A stretch of DNA of 64,000 nucleotides, taken from the NCBI GenBank assembly GCA_003132405.1, contig PKXQ01000104.1, positions 1-64,000 of the forward strand. Direction: 5' to 3'. The translations under genes were made by a program, and so were the position numbers. The notes beneath the pieces are model-generated. The model did not search any database and was not told the DNA's origin. It worked only from the letters and a program-made list of their open reading frames with translations. The stretch's first letter is position 1. Every line of letters begins with the position of its first letter. This stretch comes from Acidobacteriaceae bacterium. Lineage in GTDB: Bacteria > Acidobacteriota > Terriglobia > Terriglobales > Acidobacteriaceae. Below, in pieces: positions 4,409-44,831 of this stretch.

Positions 4409-5095
4409 AAGACCATTCAAGACCGAACTCCTATCCCTCGGCTCGACATACCGATGGTCGCTAGCCCTGGATATATCACGGCTCGCCGAACAGCTCGAAT
4501 CCACCAGATCACGCCCCTTGCTAGTGGTCGGGTCAGGGGGCTCGCAGAGCACCGCGCATCTGATCGCTAACCTGCACATGAACAGATTCGGACAGCTCTC
4601 CAAAGCCGAAACTCCACTCCTCGCGACCAGCGACTTAAATCGGTTGAAGTCATGCGGTGTTCTGCTTGTAAGTGCCAGCGGACGGAATCCCGACATCCTC
4701 GGTGTCGCTCGAGCGGCGGTGCGAGCGGAGCCTCCGGTGTTGCTTGCGCTTTGCGCCGCCCAAGGGTCACCACTGGCGACCGTGGTGCAAAGTTTCAGCA
4801 GAGGTTTTTGTTTTGAGTTCGACTTGCCCACAGGCAAGGATGGATTTCTACAACCAACAGTCTTCTTGCGCTTAGCATCGTTGCGCTAGCCGGGTACGGG
4901 TTTACTGTTTCTGACTCGCTGCCTGGTTTCGAAACCTTTAGTCCTTCTGGACTGCTGGCGTTGAGACAACAATCTTCCCGAAAGCGACCTTTCCTTGAGT
5001 GTAACTATTTGATCGTCCTCTATGGGCCGGAGAGCAGAGCTGCTGCCGTGGATCTGGAATCGAAGCTTGTTGAAGCTGGATTAGTCTCGGTTCCA
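4409..5095 (+). pseudogene. Frameshifted, 3'-truncated SIS-domain (phosphosugar isomerase-like) gene
   Basis: The plus-strand frame from about 4409 reads FKTELLSLGSTYRWSLA, then LLVVGSGGSQSTAHL, LLVSASGRNPDIL and PTGKDGFL, a Rossmann-like SIS (sugar isomerase) fold with its glycine/serine phosphosugar loop. At 4848-4850 the frame slips by one base; the continuation TTNSLLALSIVALAGYG and later NYLIVLYGPESRAAAVDL runs in another frame to about 5095. There it abuts the minus-strand integrase remnant and the gene is cut off. No start codon with a ribosome site is visible. SIS-fold proteins of this kind are often cargo of mobile islands; a precise role is unknown. Confidence 0.55.
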
Positions 5096-5897: not shown

Positions 5898-6587
5898 CTA
5901 CTCTATATAGACTTGGAATGTTAGAGAAGGGTTACCATATGCAACTGCATACCATAGCCCATCCGCTCCCATAATGAAGTACACGTCCTGCTGGTAAAAC
6001 CACGGCGGATATGCTGCTGCATAGAACCAATAGCCGCCGAAAGAGTATTCCCGGCGTCCGTTATATTCGCGCCCACCACTTGCCTCAAAGCGTCCATGAT
6101 GGTTGGGACCAAAATGACTTTCGTTGTATTCGTGTCCGTGCCTATCTTTTTGACCACTTCGTGCGTATTGAGCTTGTGATTGTTGCCCATGGCCAGTGGC
6201 TTGCTGTTGTTGGTGCTGCTGCTGACTCTTTTGCTGGTTCTGCTGGGTCTTGGTCTGCTGTTGCTGTTGTTTCTTTTCTTGTTGCTGGCCCTTGGCTTGT
6301 TGCTGTGCCTGTTTCTGCTGGCTCTGTTCTTGGCTCTTCGCCTGTTGCTGTTGCTTCTGTGGCTTAGCTTGCTGTTGCTGCTTCTCCGGTTTCGCTTGCT
6401 CCTGTTTTGCAGGCTTTGCCTGCTGTTCCTGTTTCTGAGGCTTGGCTTGTTCCTGCTTTGCAGCAGGCTTAGCCTGTTCCTCATGCTGTGCTGGCTTGCC
6501 GCTCTCTTCATGGCGCTCCTCCTGCGCGAAGGCAGGAAGAGTGACCCCGACAATAAGTAACAACATTCCAATGATCACTGGCTTCAT
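5898..6587 (-). CDS. Secreted glutamine/lysine-rich low-complexity protein
   Basis: The 229-residue protein starts at ATG 6587 after GAGG and has a signal peptide (cleavage near PAFAQEE, residue 21). Residues about 25-140 are an almost pure K/Q/A/E low-complexity tract with units such as KQEQAKPQ and QQQAKPQK. The last 90 residues form a different, aromatic-rich globular end (HGHEYNESHFGPNHHGRF, GGYWFYAAAYPPWFY, YFIMGADGLWYAVAY). Similar short aromatic C-terminal domains occur in many secreted acidobacterial and proteobacterial proteins of unknown role. The repeat tract is probably disordered and extracellular or periplasmic. It lies just beyond the island edge, and its final residues could have been altered by the insertion. 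Confidence 0.75.
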   Translation of the reverse strand: MKPVIIGMLLLIVGVTLPAFAQEERHEESGKPAQHEEQAKPAAKQEQAKPQKQEQQAKPAKQEQAKPEKQQQQAKPQKQQQQAKSQEQSQQKQAQQQAKGQQQEKKQQQQQTKTQQNQQKSQQQHQQQQATGHGQQSQAQYARSGQKDRHGHEYNESHFGPNHHGRFEASGGREYNGRREYSFGGYWFYAAAYPPWFYQQDVYFIMGADGLWYAVAYGNPSLTFQVYIE

Positions 6588-8404: not shown

Positions 8405-10096
8405 TTATGGACAGGGAGGTACATTCACCTGATTGCTGAGCAACGTGACTGCGCCCGTCCGAGCCAGCGCTCTGCCATTCAGCGTCGCGCCGGTGTCTAG
8501 CGAGACGGACGCCTGAGCCATAATGGTTCCTGCGAACGTTGTGCTGGTTCCAAGCGTCGCCGAACTACCGACCTGCCAGAACACGTCTGCGGACGTGGCG
8601 CCTCCGCTTAAAATGACATCGCTGTTGGTTGCTGCCGTGGTCAGCGTGGACACGATCTGGAAGATGTAGACACCGTTCCCGCTGAGGGTAAGGTTCCCGG
8701 TTATTCCCAGCGAGGGCTGGGCGCTCGTCGTCTTATAAACGCCGGGAGCGAGTGTTTCCCCTCCTATATCTGCGGGGAGGACAGCTCCTCCCGGTGCTGC
8801 CGCGGCGAAGTTATACGCCGTGGTCAAGTCGCCCTGGGCCGTCTGGGCAACCGCATCGCCCGCATGCAGCGTGCCGCTATAATTTGCCGGCGTAAATCCA
8901 GTGATCGCAGTCCCTGGCCACACGCCAATATCCCCACTAACGAACGTGGACGCTCCAGAATTGGTGACTGTGGAACCACCCAGGATTCCGAAACTGCAGG
9001 CCGATCCCAGCGGTACGGTGGGTTGACATGCCGTGGCAGATGTGGTGAAGGTCCATACATAATTACTTGTTAGTCCAACGCCAGCGAGATTCTTGGCCCC
9101 CGTGGTAATGGTGGCGGTGTAGAGGGTATCGAGTGTGAGCGGGTTGTCCGGTGTGAAGGTCGCGACATAGCTTGACACAGAATAGGTAACTGTCCCGGCC
9201 ACGGATGTAGAGCCCGCCGCCAACGTAAAGGTTGTGGTGTTGATCGTGGCGGGATTCATCGCCTCGCTGAAGGTGGCAACCACCAGGGTGCTGGGACATA
9301 TATCGTCAGAGCCATTAGGAGGGGCTACGGAAACCACGGTGGGCGGAGCGCATGCCGTGGCACTTGTGGTGAAAGTCCATACATAGTTACTCGCCAGGGC
9401 ATTGCCATTGAGGTTCTGGGCCCCCGTTGTAATGGTGGCGGTATAGAGAGTGCTCAGTGCAAGAGGGCTCGATGGTGTAAACGTCGCGGTTGACGCAGCG
9501 TACGTAACTACTCCCGTTACGGGCGTAGTGCCCGGCCCTGTCAAAGTGAAGGTTGTGGTATTGATCGTGGCAGGATTCATCGCCTCGCTGAAGGTAGCGG
9601 TCACTGCCGTGCTGGGACAGACGCCATTTGCCGGGGTCACGGAAATCACGGTGGGCGGAGCGCATGGTTCGGCAGCGGTGGTGAAGGTCCATACAAAGTT
9701 ACTCGCTAGCGCAATGCCGTACTCGTCTATGGCTCCAGTCGTAATCGTCGCGGTATAGAGAGTATCCAGTTCCAGAGCGCTTGATGGCGTAAAAGTAAAA
9801 ATTGTGTTGGTTGGATCGGCGGTAATTACTCCTGCCACTGCCTCGGGAGGAGTGCCTGCCGTCAACGTAAAGGTTGTGGCATTGATCGTGGCGGGTTGCA
9901 TCGGCAGGCTGAACGTGGCGGTCACTACGGTGTTGGGACAGACGCCGGCAGCACCAGTAGGAGGGGTTTCGGAAATTACTGTAGGCGGGGTTAGGCCTGG
10001 GTTGGCGCCGGGATTGCAGCATCCGGCGCTGAAGATGAGCAGTAAGAATGCTATGCACCACGTCGTGTAATTGTAGTATTTGCGCATGACCGTCAT
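8405..10096 (-). CDS. Lipoprotein with three Big_5 Ig-like repeats and an ice-binding (DUF3494) domain
   Basis: The 563-residue protein has a lipoprotein signal (FLLLIFSAGC, Cys26). It then carries three near-identical Ig-like repeats of about 104-110 residues (about 37-143, 144-247, 248-357), each with PPTVIS, a CP(N/S)T core, FTPSS or FTPDN and ending N(F/Y)VWTFTT. The last 200 residues are a DUF3494-type right-handed beta-helix (FGILGGSTVTNSGAS, SGDIGVWPGTAITGF, PGVYKTTSA, GNGVYIFQI, ADVFWQVGSSATLG, FAGTIMAQASVSLDTGATLNG), the fold of bacterial ice-binding proteins. That family binds ice or is used as an adhesin module. AGAGG lies seven bases before ATG 10096. The neighbouring palindrome at 10213 is 117 bases upstream. 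Confidence 0.85.
   Translation of the reverse strand: MTVMRKYYNYTTWCIAFLLLIFSAGCCNPGANPGLTPPTVISETPPTGAAGVCPNTVVTATFSLPMQPATINATTFTLTAGTPPEAVAGVITADPTNTIFTFTPSSALELDTLYTATITTGAIDEYGIALASNFVWTFTTAAEPCAPPTVISVTPANGVCPSTAVTATFSEAMNPATINTTTFTLTGPGTTPVTGVVTYAASTATFTPSSPLALSTLYTATITTGAQNLNGNALASNYVWTFTTSATACAPPTVVSVAPPNGSDDICPSTLVVATFSEAMNPATINTTTFTLAAGSTSVAGTVTYSVSSYVATFTPDNPLTLDTLYTATITTGAKNLAGVGLTSNYVWTFTTSATACQPTVPLGSACSFGILGGSTVTNSGASTFVSGDIGVWPGTAITGFTPANYSGTLHAGDAVAQTAQGDLTTAYNFAAAAPGGAVLPADIGGETLAPGVYKTTSAQPSLGITGNLTLSGNGVYIFQIVSTLTTAATNSDVILSGGATSADVFWQVGSSATLGTSTTFAGTIMAQASVSLDTGATLNGRALARTGAVTLLSNQVNVPPCP
9026..9991 (-). repeat. Three tandem Ig-domain-coding repeats of about 310 bp
   Basis: The DNA coding for the three Big_5 domains is itself repetitive: similar stretches such as those coding for NPATINTTTFTL and LYTATITTGA recur at about 310-bp spacing, most alike between the second and third units. 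This indicates recent tandem duplication and makes unequal recombination and copy-number variation likely. Confidence 0.7.
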
Positions 10097-10212
10097 CCTT
10101 TTTCCTCTCGGCTCAACTGCCGCGGTTCATTGGAATATTGCATTAGAACAAAAAAGATTAGTCGGATCGGCTGTAACCAATCTGTTCACAATTGCTCACA
10201 GTTACATCCAGC

Positions 10213-10248
10213 GTGACATCGATCACACAGATGTGTGATCGATGTCAC
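10213..10248. promoter_or_regulatory. Perfect 36-bp palindrome containing two CRP-like boxes
   Basis: GTGACATCGATCACACA (10213-10229) is exactly inverted at 10232-10248, leaving a two-base centre. Each arm holds a GTGA-N6-TCAC box (10213-10226 and 10235-10248), the recognition pattern of Crp-type regulators. It lies in the 469-bp divergent gap between the ice-binding-like lipoprotein (starting at 10096 leftwards) and the YSC84 gene (starting at 10566 rightwards), and could control either. The same box occurs once more upstream of the Crp/Fnr gene at 12414. The rest of the gap shows no gene. Confidence 0.65.
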
Positions 10249-10565
10249 TATGCGTACCCATTTGTCTTCCGGTTGCTGTGTCGTGGCTGAGCATAACTGT
10301 GTGTATGGGGGGGTGCTCTTGAAACCGCAGGTGCCGAACTTGTGAAAGAGTACTCTAAGGTCAACCTAAGGCAGGCATTCAAGACACACGGAGAACAAGA
10401 ATACGATTGGTAGTTCCGAGTGAGCATTTTTGCTCAGCCCTCTTAAGACCTGATTTGCTAAGTTCGGATTGACCTTGATGTGCCCGAATGTTCTCCCGGA
10501 CTTGTGCGCAAGACACGGTACGAATCCGGAGATGCGGCGCAGAGGTAACAGAAAAGAGGTTATCC

Positions 10566-11258
10566 ATGAAAAAAACAATGTTCCTACTTGCGATGTTGAG
10601 TCTCGGTACGTTGTGCTGGGCGGGGTCGGCGCGGGAAGACGCCACCGACCGGCTGGACAACGCAACCAACGTGATTCACGAAATTATGGGGATGCCTGAC
10701 AAAGGTATCCCGGAAGAAGTTTTAGAGCACGCAAAGTGCGTGGCGGTTATACCGCACACGGTCAAAGGTGGTTTTGTCTTCGGAGCTGAAGGAGGCAAGG
10801 GCGTGGCCACCTGCCGTACGGCGAATGGCTGGAGTGCGCCGGCGTTCATCACGATTTCGGGTGGAAGCTGGGGGTTGCAGATCGGTGTGGAAGCTGTGGA
10901 CGTGGTAATGATCTTTCAGAATGACAAAGCAATGCAAAGGCTGCTCTCCAGTAATTTCCAGGTTGGCGGGGACGCTTCCGCGGCGGCGGGTCCAGTTGGA
11001 CGCCATGCCGAGGCGGGCACGGATTGGAAGTTGGATACAGAGATCCTGACCTACTCTCGTGCCAAAGGCGCATTCGCTGGGCTCACGCTGACAGGTGCAT
11101 CGCTCCGTCAAGACAATGACTCCCGGCGTGCGATATACGGACACAACGTCACAACTCGGGCTTTGCTGTCGGGCAGAGTGCCGGTTCCAGCCGCAGCTGA
11201 GCGGTTCATTGCGGAGGTTCGCGGATCCAAAGCTGCGGCCAGAGTCAACAAAGAGTAG
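10566..11258 (+). CDS. Lipid-binding SYLF/YSC84 domain protein, secreted
   Basis: The 230-residue protein starts at ATG 10566 after AAGAGG (spacing about eight); in-frame upstream codons lack a ribosome site. A signal peptide (1-19, ending CWAGSA) is followed by the SYLF/YSC84 domain (about 30-215), recognised from IPEEVLEHAKCVAVIP, GGFVFGAEGGKGVATCR, APAFITISGGSWGLQIG and the later LTLTGASLRQDNDSRRAIYG. The family binds phosphoinositides in eukaryotes; bacterial members are periplasmic or outer-membrane associated stress proteins of unclear role. It is followed by a small lmo0937-type membrane protein, and the upstream palindrome may regulate it. Confidence 0.85.
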   Translation: MKKTMFLLAMLSLGTLCWAGSAREDATDRLDNATNVIHEIMGMPDKGIPEEVLEHAKCVAVIPHTVKGGFVFGAEGGKGVATCRTANGWSAPAFITISGGSWGLQIGVEAVDVVMIFQNDKAMQRLLSSNFQVGGDASAAAGPVGRHAEAGTDWKLDTEILTYSRAKGAFAGLTLTGASLRQDNDSRRAIYGHNVTTRALLSGRVPVPAAAERFIAEVRGSKAAARVNKE

Positions 11259-11385: not shown

Positions 11386-11535
11386 ATGCTTTGGACTATG
11401 TTCGTTGTTCTTCTGATTTTGTGGCTTTTGGGTTTCAGTCTGCATCTCGGCGGCGCCCTGATTCACTTACTGCTGGTTGTGGCGTTGGTGGTTCTGGTCA
11501 TTAACTTATTAAGTGGACGGCGGACCGCGGTTTGA
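11386..11535 (+). CDS. Small lmo0937-family membrane protein
   Basis: A 49-residue protein with a very good ribosome site (AAAGGAGG, seven bases before ATG 11386). It consists of two hydrophobic helices (MFVVLLILWLLGFSL and IHLLLVVALVVLVINLL) joined by HLGGA and ends SGRRTAV. This is the lmo0937/DUF5670 pattern, a small membrane protein often found beside stress genes such as YSC84 and CsbD. The molecular role is unknown. A strong hairpin follows the stop by 22 bases. Confidence 0.85.
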   Translation: MLWTMFVVLLILWLLGFSLHLGGALIHLLLVVALVVLVINLLSGRRTAV

Positions 11536-11684: not shown

Positions 11685-12353
11685 CTAGTCGTGGAGCACG
11701 ACGTTGAGAAGCGAACTGTGAACGTGCAATACGTCGCCAGCCTGATAATCAACGAACCCCAATCCCCTGAACTTGTTCATGAAATGGCTAACCCGAGACC
11801 GAGTAGTGCCGATCATTTCTGCGAGGGTCTCCTGACTAATGTTGGGGATCACACATTCGGGCTTTCCGTCCTTGCCGAAGTGAGCAAGGAGGAGAAGGAC
11901 GCGAGCGAGGCGCTCCTCACTCGAATTGAAAAGCTGATCAACCAAATCCTCTTCGAGGCGTATGTTCCGTGCCAGCAAGAATGCTACGAACACACCGGAA
12001 ACCCCGTGTTCCCGGTGAAGCATTTCGATCATGGACTTCTTGTCGATTCGTATCACGGAGCAATCGGTCATCGCGGTAGCAGTGCAGAACCGAAGAGGCT
12101 CTCCTCTAAGGCACTCTTCTCCCAAGAAATCTCCCTCGCTCAGAATTCCTATCGTGGCTTCCTTCCCGCTCTTTGATACAACGGTCAGCTTTACCTTTCC
12201 TTTCTGTATATAAAAAACAGCATCGGACGAGTCACCCTGAACAAAGACTGTCTGTTTCTTGGGAACAGCCGTGATCGTCCTACCGTCGCCGATGGTCGAA
12301 AGGGATGTCTTGAGGTCGAATTTGACGAGCTGATTGGCCGCTACGACTCTCAT
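11685..12353 (-). CDS. Crp/Fnr-family transcription regulator
   Basis: The 222-residue protein has a cyclic-nucleotide-binding-type beta-roll (about 20-130; VFVQGDSSDAVFYIQKGKVK, ATIGILSEGDFLGEECL), a dimer helix (VAFLLARNIRLEEDLVDQLF) and a winged helix (about 145-215; ISQETLAEMIGTTRSRVSHF). No cysteine pattern of an Fnr iron-sulfur cluster is seen at the N-terminus. The RxRVS recognition helix differs from both CRP and FNR. ATG 12353 is used; a GTG nine bases upstream is possible and neither has a clear ribosome site. A GTGA-N6-TCAC box 61 bases upstream suggests autoregulation, and two such boxes form the palindrome at 10213. Confidence 0.85.
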   Translation of the reverse strand: MRVVAANQLVKFDLKTSLSTIGDGRTITAVPKKQTVFVQGDSSDAVFYIQKGKVKLTVVSKSGKEATIGILSEGDFLGEECLRGEPLRFCTATAMTDCSVIRIDKKSMIEMLHREHGVSGVFVAFLLARNIRLEEDLVDQLFNSSEERLARVLLLLAHFGKDGKPECVIPNISQETLAEMIGTTRSRVSHFMNKFRGLGFVDYQAGDVLHVHSSLLNVVLHD

Positions 12354-12413
12354 GATCGGCACTCTGCTGGCTGCTAGCTACCACAATTATCTCGCGCTGT
12401 TCGTTCTTTGCCC

Positions 12414-12427
12414 GTGATGGACGTCAC
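12414..12427. promoter_or_regulatory. CRP-like box upstream of the Crp/Fnr gene
   Basis: GTGATGGACGTCAC matches GTGA-N6-TCAC and differs from the right arm of the 10213 palindrome (GTGATCGATGTCAC) at only two positions. It lies 61 bases before the regulator's start codon, where an autoregulatory operator would be expected. Confidence 0.5.
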
Positions 12428-42206: not shown

Positions 42207-44831
42207 ATGGTTGCCATGAACTTGATTGGCTCGTACAACTACGCGCTCGTGGCGCTTTCGGTGTTCATCGCCGTGTTCGCGTCGTACGCTGCTCTGGATC
42301 TCGCAAGTCGCGTAACGGCTGCGGGCGGTTGGACTCGTGCGCTTTGGGTGCTGGGCGGTGCCTGTGCGATGGGGACAGGCATTTGGTCAATGCACTACAT
42401 TGGGATGCTCGCGTTCATCCTGCCGATTCCTGTGGCTTACCACTGGCCAACCGTTCTGCTGTCACTTTTTGCGGCCATTCTCGCGTCGGTCATTGCGCTG
42501 TACGTGGTGAGCCGCCAGAAAATGGGCGCGTCTCAAGCGCTCGCCGGAAGTGTCCTGATGGGTGCGGGTATTGCCGGTATGCATTACATCGGCATGGCCG
42601 CTATGCGCTTACCGGCTCTATGCCAATTTAATTCCTTTGTCGTCGTCCTGTCCGTCGCCTTAGCGGTTCTGATCTCACTCGCGGCCCTATGGATTACCTT
42701 TCACTTCCGAGATGAGAAAACGGGTATCGGCCGGAAGAAGTTAGCCGGAGCCGTCCTGATGGGTGCTGCGATCCCTGTCATGCATTACACCGGCATGGCC
42801 GCCGCCAGTTTCACGTCCTCCGGCATGCCGGCCGACCTGTCTCACGCCGTAAGCATCTCCGCACTCGGCATTGCCGGAATTGTCGCCATCACCTTCATCG
42901 TCCTCGGACTGGCTCTGCTGACGTCCTGGGTGGATAGACGATTCGCTGCCCAGACCTTTGAACTGCAGCAGCGGCGAAACGAGGCGTACTTGGCGGAAGC
43001 CCAAAGGCTCAGCCACACGGGCAGTTTCGGTTGGAAACCCTCTACTGGCGAGATCATCTGGTCAGAGGAAACCTTTCGCGTCTTCCAATACGGCCGAACG
43101 ACGACACCGACCGTGGAACTCCTTCTCCAACGGGTTCATCCGGAAGACGTGGCGCTCGTGAAACAGACAATTGAACGCGCGACGCAGGATGGAAAGAATT
43201 TTGAACATGAATATCGCTTGCTCATGCCAGATGGTTCCGCCAAACATGTCCACGTTGTGGCTCATACCTTAGGCGATGAATCGGGCACCTTAGAGTTCGT
43301 AGGAGCGGTGATGGACGTCACCGAGCGCAAGCAAGCCGAGCAGAAATTTCGCGGGCTTCTGGAATCTGCTCCGGATGCAGTGATCGTCATGAATCGGCAG
43401 GGCAAGATCGTCTTGGTCAATGCTCAAGTCGAGAAGCTGTTTGAGTATCAGCGGGACGACCTCTTGGGGCAAGAGGTTGAAGTTTTGGTGCCGGAACGAT
43501 TTCGGGGCCTACACCCCCAGCACCGGAAGGAGTTCTTCGCACACTCTCGGGTACGGCCGATGGGTGAAGGCCTGCAACTGTACGGACGGCGGAAAGACGG
43601 CACAGAGTTTCCCGTGGAAATCAGTCTGAGTCCGCTGGAAACGGAACAGGGTACGCTTGTCTCCGCTGCCGTCCGCGACGTCACCGAGCGCATGCGGTCG
43701 CAAGAGGCATTGCGGCGGAGCGAGAGTTATCTGGCCGAAGCGCAGAAGCTCACACATATGGGAAGTTGGGTCTGGGCAGTAGCTGAAAGACGCGCATTGC
43801 ATCTATCCGAAGAATGGTATCGCGTGTATGGCTTCGATCCGAATGAAGGCATTCCGGATTGGAATAAGCCAGTGCAGCGCATGCATCCGGATGATCGAGC
43901 CAGGTGGCAACAAGTATTCGACCGAGCAATACGTGAAAAGTTGGATTACGAAGCTGAATACCGAATTCTTCTTCCAGACGGCGCCGTAAGACACATCCGC
44001 AGTGTCGGACATCCTGTTCTGAACGCTTCCGGGAATCTGGTGCAATTCGTTGGCAGCTCCACCGACATCACCGAACGCAAACAAGCCGAAGAGGCTCTGC
44101 GCCGGGCGCAGGCTGATCTCGCCCACATCAACCGCGTGAGCATGATGGGAGAATTGGCCGCCTCACTGGCTCATGAGCTCAAACAGCCAATCGCCGCCGC
44201 CCTAACGGACGCCAAAACCTGCGTGCGATGGCTACGACGCGATACTCCCGATGTCGCTGAGGGTTGCGAGGCGGCATTAAGAATAATCAATGATGCAACG
44301 CGCGCTGCCGAGGTTATCGACAGGGTTCGCTCGCTTTATAGGCGAGACACATCGGACCGGGAACTGCTTGATGTAAACGAAATCATTCGAGAAATGATTA
44401 TTCTGCTGCACGACAACGCGGATCGGAATTCTATTTCAATCCGCACCGAGCTCGACTCAGGGCTTCCGCTGGTCACAGCGGATCGCGTACAGCTGCAGCA
44501 GGTATTAATGAACCTGTTGCTCAATGGCGTTGAAGCGATGAAAGATGCAAAAGGCGAACTGACGGTCACGTCGAAGAGGACCGACGATGGTCAACTGCTC
44601 ATTTCAGTGAGTGATTCGGGCATCGGTCTTCCGAGCGGAGACGTGGACCGGATTTTCGAGGCCTTCTTCACCACCAAAGCCCAGGGTACCGGCATGGGAT
44701 TGTCCATTAGTTGGAGGATTATCGAGTCTCACGGAGGGCGTTTGTGGGCGTCCGCCAATTCGGAACGCGGCGCGACATTTCACTTCACACTGCCCGGCGA
44801 CGTGGCGGCGTCCTCACCATCGGCCGCGTAA
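42207..44831 (+). CDS. MHYT-sensor, triple-PAS histidine kinase
   Basis: The 874-residue protein carries a 7-helix MHYT domain (about 1-250) with three copies of the metal-binding motif (MHYIGM twice, MHYTGM once), thought to sense O2, CO or NO through copper. Three PAS domains follow (about 275-380, 385-500, 505-630), then HisKA with phospho-His in [13 protein letters not shown] and HATPase_c ([29 protein letters not shown]). PAS1 closely resembles the PAS of the kinase at 24525-26042 and PAS3 that of the kinase at 22311-23858. No regulator gene follows it. ATG 42207 is used; the next Met is three codons in. Confidence 0.9.

Follow-up and report, generated by a model that had tools for sequence, protein, structure and literature searches.

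A perfect 36-bp palindrome between an ice-binding-like gene and a YSC84 gene of an Acidobacteriaceae bacterium is best read as a recently gained Fnr-type double operator, placed on a promoter that was probably already under a regulator of the P0001 type. Judging from sequence comparisons, we give a probability of roughly three in four to the palindrome serving an Fnr-type regulator of the P0004 group as a double operator, and not the neighbouring Crp/Fnr-family regulator P0001. The window, that is the whole stretch of 64,000 nucleotides analysed, contains the following features around the palindrome.

8405 to 10096, minus strand: P0003, protein with Big_5 repeats and an ice-binding-like domain (PF11999), N-terminal signal or lipobox-like start
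10183 to 10198, minus strand: TGAGCAATTGTGAACA, putative P0001-family operator in the promoter of the ice-binding-like gene, beside the palindrome
10213 to 10248, no strand: 36-bp palindrome, two GTGA-N6-TCAC boxes with centres 22 bp apart, candidate Fnr-type double operator
10213 to 10229 and 10232 to 10248: palindrome arms, 2 nt between them
10213 to 10226, no strand: box 1, GTGACATCGATCAC
10235 to 10248, no strand: box 2, GTGATCGATGTCAC
10421 to 10436, no strand: TGAGCATTTTTGCTCA, putative P0001-family operator before YSC84
10566 to 11258, plus strand: P0002, YSC84/SYLF domain protein (PF04366)
11386 to 11535, plus strand: lmo0937-family small membrane protein (NF033488, PF18919)
11685 to 12362, minus strand: P0001, Crp/Fnr-family regulator, recognition helix TTRSRVSHFMNKF, start at GTG 12362 or ATG 12353
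12414 to 12427, no strand: single box GTGATGGACGTCAC, 61 bp before the P0001 ATG at 12353

A perfect palindrome built from two GTGA boxes

Positions 10213-10248 form a perfect inverted repeat whose 17-nt arms are 100% complementary around the centre GA. No other perfect inverted repeat in the window has arms of at least 12 nt and a spacer of at most 10, and in 26 other loci of the genome, which add up to 101,162 bases, the longest such arms measure 13 nt. By hand arithmetic (64,000 x 11 spacers x 4^-17), about 4e-5 repeats with 17-nt arms are expected by chance, which bears out the initial annotation in placing the repeat beyond chance. Its other structural descriptions also held: each arm is a GTGA-N6-TCAC box, these inverted repeats are CRP-like, and the third box before the Crp/Fnr gene has two base differences from the palindrome box. 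The half-sites are GTGA and do not form the canonical FNR box TTGAT-N4-ATCAA, and the putative P0001-family operator, TGAGCA-N4-TGMWCA, is absent from the palindrome itself. A perfect 26-bp palindrome, ACAAATGTTCCACGTGGAACATTTGT, lies at positions 4779-4804 of locus L132 on contig C25 of the same genome; it presumably resembles a parS centromere site.

GTGA boxes are spread through the genome

It had been proposed that the boxes define a local regulon under the neighbouring regulator, and the genome scan spoke against this. The pattern GTGAYNNNNRTCAC has 88 sites in the genome and 5 for the reversed pattern, the sole control for this count, which preserves base content and not dinucleotide content; the boxes are therefore not private to the neighbour. 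Within the window, four GTGAYNNNNRTCAC sites were observed, with 0.12 expected from shuffles. Searched for through the 5.7-Mb assembly, GTGATSGAYGTCAC has four exact copies, and every one of them falls within the window. The fourth (43308-43321), which the initial annotation did not mention, lies inside a PAS-kinase reading frame (42207-44831), where it encodes V-M-D-V-T, and is probably a coincidence. Allowing at most one mismatch, GTGATSGAYGTCAC is found at 22 places in the genome, compared with one for the reversed control. The palindrome carries the marks of a genome-wide GTGA regulon, as it matches GTGAYNNNNRTCAC, is intergenic and forms a 22-bp pair.

Outside called genes lie 45 of the 52 sites inspected (the first 50 of the 88 by contig and two on contig C97), an approximate count since the gene calls come from a simple codon-usage script. 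The genes next to the boxes, named by eye and not by family searches, include those for 2-oxoacid:ferredoxin oxidoreductases, ferredoxin, a NiFe-hydrogenase small subunit, HemB, cytochromes c, ResB-like and CcsA-like proteins, a radical-SAM protein, acetyl-CoA synthetase and a CoA transferase, and one more GTGAYNNNNRTCAC-type site precedes HemE. Some boxes precede genes without a redox link, such as a GalE-like gene. The gene content behind the boxes resembles an anaerobic and haem (Fnr-like) regulon. The ice-binding-like gene and YSC84 are untypical as Fnr targets, and this counts against the Fnr-type reading.

Double boxes recur at a spacing of 22 bp

Across 61 genomes, comprising its own and those of 60 relatives, pairs of GTGA-N6-TCAC boxes 1-29 bp apart are present in 33, while the reversed control gave 0 in all 61. 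Among the matches listed (75 of the 85 forward), the gap is exactly 8 bp, or 22 bp centre to centre, in 44 of 75 pairs, a count inflated by orthologues: these 44 reduce to 18 sequence clusters, and all other gaps to 21. Forty distinct 22-bp doubles were examined; all fall outside called genes, and 17 stand upstream of one and the same radical-SAM gene. This recurrence in related genomes makes it plausible, as had been suggested, that two dimers could bind the same DNA. A gap of 29 bp is seen in 14 of the 75 matches listed, several of which have, by eye, a degenerate third box between the two. The palindrome arms are symmetric at 17 of 18 positions, compared with only 8-13 in the other 43 22-bp doubles among the matches listed. 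On these comparisons the palindrome is a member of a recurrent class of putative double operators, and an outlier only in its symmetry.

Half-site asymmetry, with GTGAC outer and GTGAT inner, was considered as a mark of paired binding and dropped: it is strong in 14 of the 44 doubles, those resembling the radical-SAM site, and Fisher's p is 0.17 once the radical-SAM-like doubles are reduced to one. Upstream of a ferredoxin gene in the own genome (L155, C23:4300-4356) is a 57-bp match with boxes 43 bp apart, and there are 13 others of this kind; several have a degenerate middle box, which suggests that they are triple arrays. A 38-bp box pair with an ACACA/TGTGT hairpin core stands near P0004-group Fnr-like genes at G008:C141:55262, G010:C106:60740 and G014:C333:24448.

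The unusual arm identity also bears on a second function that had been raised, that of an RNA hairpin, considered here as part of the 5' leader of a flanking transcript, where it would act by attenuation or on stability. Arm identity beyond that of the other doubles favours such a role, as does the strong predicted fold (z of -3.82 as RNA and -5.57 as DNA). No positive evidence for the hairpin beyond the fold emerged. At the palindrome there is neither a T run nor a call of an intrinsic terminator, an Rfam scan of the window gave no match, and the repeat consists of copies of an operator that is genome-wide, set at the usual spacing of such operators. We therefore consider an RNA hairpin improbable. 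Under the double-operator reading, the arm identity beyond the boxes would probably be secondary, for example the result of template-switch correction of a quasi-palindrome formed by two adjacent boxes. Template switching within quasi-palindromes is a known type of mutation (PMC7202029, PMC3820800). A tRNA scan of the window gave no match, and a sigma-70 scan gave a single weak one, inside YSC84, that scored below the shuffled mean.

Two regulator groups and their predicted sites

The genome has 24 HTH_Crp_2 matches, of which 22 are above the family cut-off. The P0004 group has four members here, encoded on contigs other than that of the palindrome, and its recognition helices read RETVTR, RETVSR or RETITR. 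In CRP, residues 180, 181 and 185 contact DNA, and family-wide residue 180 goes with G3 and residue 181 with A6 of the site, as described in PMC1274295. Alignments give Arg-Glu at residues 180-181 in P0004 and Arg-Ser in P0001. Because of this rule and its Arg-Glu helix, the P0004 group would be expected to read TGTGA.

The upstream regions point the same way. An exact GTGA-N6-TCAC box lies within 250 bp upstream of 28 of the 32 P0004-group genes scored, many of whose upstream regions are orthologous to one another, compared with 0.125 in mononucleotide shuffles; a TGAGCA-type site was found upstream of none of the 32. These are all but one of 33 loci, L205 having been omitted as a partial match. 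Box site density also follows P0004-group copy number across the 61 genomes (Spearman 0.83, relatedness ignored). Of the 32 proteins scored, 31 have Cys7, Cys10, Cys19 and Cys58; the exception is L037, one of the four members in the own genome, which has no N-terminal cysteines. The four residues suggest an Fe-S cluster in P0004, an assignment that we assume from E. coli FNR.

The P0001 family has 12 matches in the own genome at E<=1e-40, P0001 and 11 paralogues, and appears to be a lineage expansion of one Crp/Fnr group. Its helix is RSRVSH/F, with His in P0001 where most relatives have Phe. Short matches to the sequence that adjoins the palindrome on its left turn up in relatives: with at most one mismatch, GTGAGCAATTKTGAACA is found at 79 places in 25 of the 61 genomes (control 0). 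In 24 genomes it occurs with P0001 homologues and in one without them, 15 genomes have homologues alone, and 21 have neither. For ten of the 79 places a P0001-family gene is at most 1 kb away, compared with 0.18 expected. A slightly widened TGAGCA-N4-TGMWCA, with at most one mismatch, is found upstream of 11 of 39 P0001-family genes and twice in six (mononucleotide shuffles average 0.22); it was not found before 28 of the 39, P0001 among them. The only exact TGAGCA-N4-TGMWCA sites in the window are the two that flank the palindrome, 10183-10198 in the ice-binding-like promoter and 10421-10436 in the YSC84 promoter. Both genes may well be under P0001 or under one of the 11 paralogues, acting through these sites rather than the palindrome. 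Retention of Arg180 with G3 in P0001 and the TGAGCA site, and the change of Glu181 to Ser alongside A6 to C, fit the published rule. GTGAGCAATTKTGAACA was also seen upstream of response-regulator, PRC-barrel-like and PsiE-like genes (names by eye).

These results weigh on the local regulon, in which P0001 would bind both the palindrome and the single box upstream of its gene. Proximity speaks for it, three of the four genomic GTGATSGAYGTCAC copies being at most 2.2 kb from P0001. Among 42 P0001-family upstream regions (some duplicates), moreover, only that of P0001 has an exact GTGA-N6-TCAC box, and His for Phe in the helix makes a private change of specificity conceivable. Set against this, the motif class is genome-wide and follows the P0004 group, P0001 has no Glu181, and its family goes with TGAGCA-N4-TGMWCA. 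We judge regulation of the palindrome by P0001 to be unlikely. It nevertheless counts against our main reading that the region upstream of P0001 contains a GTGA box and lacks a TGAGCA-type site.

A probable recent addition to an older promoter

Comparison with relatives, which the initial annotation had proposed, did not favour the palindrome. A GTGA-N6-TCAC box within 350 bp upstream was found in none of 16 ice-binding orthologues in acidobacterial records (scored from 18 loci, as L248 and L269 have no usable start, out of 80 fetched). Eight other distinct ice-binding-like promoters came from the 61-genome search, duplicates counted once, and one of them has a GTGA-N6-TCAC box (L174, a single box). 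Since orthologous ice-binding promoters lack the double box, conservation lends no support at this locus, and the palindrome looks recently added. A TGAGCA-type site is present in 10 of the 16 orthologue promoters by a loose scan, six of them exact, and exact GTGAGCAATTKTGAA in two of the eight other promoters, with a near copy in L122. The site before YSC84 is exact and in the same place in four of five relatives, with a variant in L118. In the 700 bp upstream of YSC84 orthologues, an exact GTGA-N6-TCAC box was not found in four of five relatives; L118 has a single GTGAAGGGTCTCAC.

The own genome also has a close ice-binding-like paralogue (L178 and L180, C134:95323-97341), with no GTGA-N6-TCAC box upstream. 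On the minus strand of the window, 5898-6587 encodes a predicted protein rich in long Gln/Lys/Ala repeats, and a Gln/Lys-rich protein is also found downstream of YSC84 in L121.

Absence from orthologous promoters, as a sign of recent acquisition, would equally suit a mobile or repeat element inserted recently, such as a REP-like unit or a transposon end. The exact arms, however, are found nowhere else in the 5.7-Mb assembly, and a 601-bp DNA search around the palindrome returned over it only the self and inverted self matches at E<1e-3. The palindrome is single-copy and no widespread repeat element; we regard an inserted element as very improbable.

If the palindrome is an Fnr-type double operator, one P0004-type dimer would sit on each box, with the Arg-Glu-Arg helix reading GTGA. 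Both dimers would lie on one face of the DNA, two helical turns (22 bp) apart and adjoining the TGAGCA site. The ice-binding-like gene, and perhaps YSC84 too, would then be transcribed differently as oxygen falls. The TGAGCA-N4-TGMWCA sites would let a P0001-type regulator act on these two promoters as well, and through the box at 12414 P0001 itself would come under the Fnr-type regulator.

Implications and comparison with known systems

A wider picture can be drawn tentatively. This family of soil Acidobacteriota might have a global anaerobic regulon in which Cys-bearing Fnr-type proteins bind GTGA sites, often as 22-bp dimer pairs, and an expanded P0001 group (12 copies here) that uses TGAGCA-N4-TGMWCA. 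Both codes would meet at one ice-binding or surface-protein promoter, where template switching would have perfected the palindrome. The results offer two testable operator codes with likely regulators for Acidobacteriota, and the recurrent 22-bp double site, if true, is a clean case of paired Crp/Fnr dimers. They also show that an adjacent regulator gene can mislead, as the operator beside P0001 seems to be that of another regulator. In the open-access literature, by titles and abstract openings and with most subscription papers outside its range, we found no paper on 22-bp paired Crp/Fnr sites or on an Fnr/Crp regulon of Acidobacteria that uses these operators. The main text of a study of the Crp/Fnr regulons of a microbiome (PMC8510549) does not mention Acidobacteria.

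The E. coli CRP and Desulfovibrio HcpR operators, given as wTGTGAnnnnnnTCACAw in PMC1274295, share with the boxes the half-site GTGA, the 6-bp centre and a Crp/Fnr-family reader with an Arg-Glu recognition helix. Unlike these systems, the likely reader here has N-terminal cysteines, with redox and haem genes as its targets, and fixed 22-bp pairs recur. The FNR/DNR box, TTGATnnnnATCAA in the same source, belongs to the same regulator family and has similar target genes and the same site geometry, but the second base of the half-site is here G for T (GTGA, not TTGA), which agrees with position 180 being Arg and not a neutral residue. The tandem upstream sites of NorR (PMC1274295) likewise put several copies of an operator at a single promoter. 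NorR, however, belongs to a different family and is a sigma-54-dependent activator, whereas the copies described here are Crp/Fnr-type boxes.
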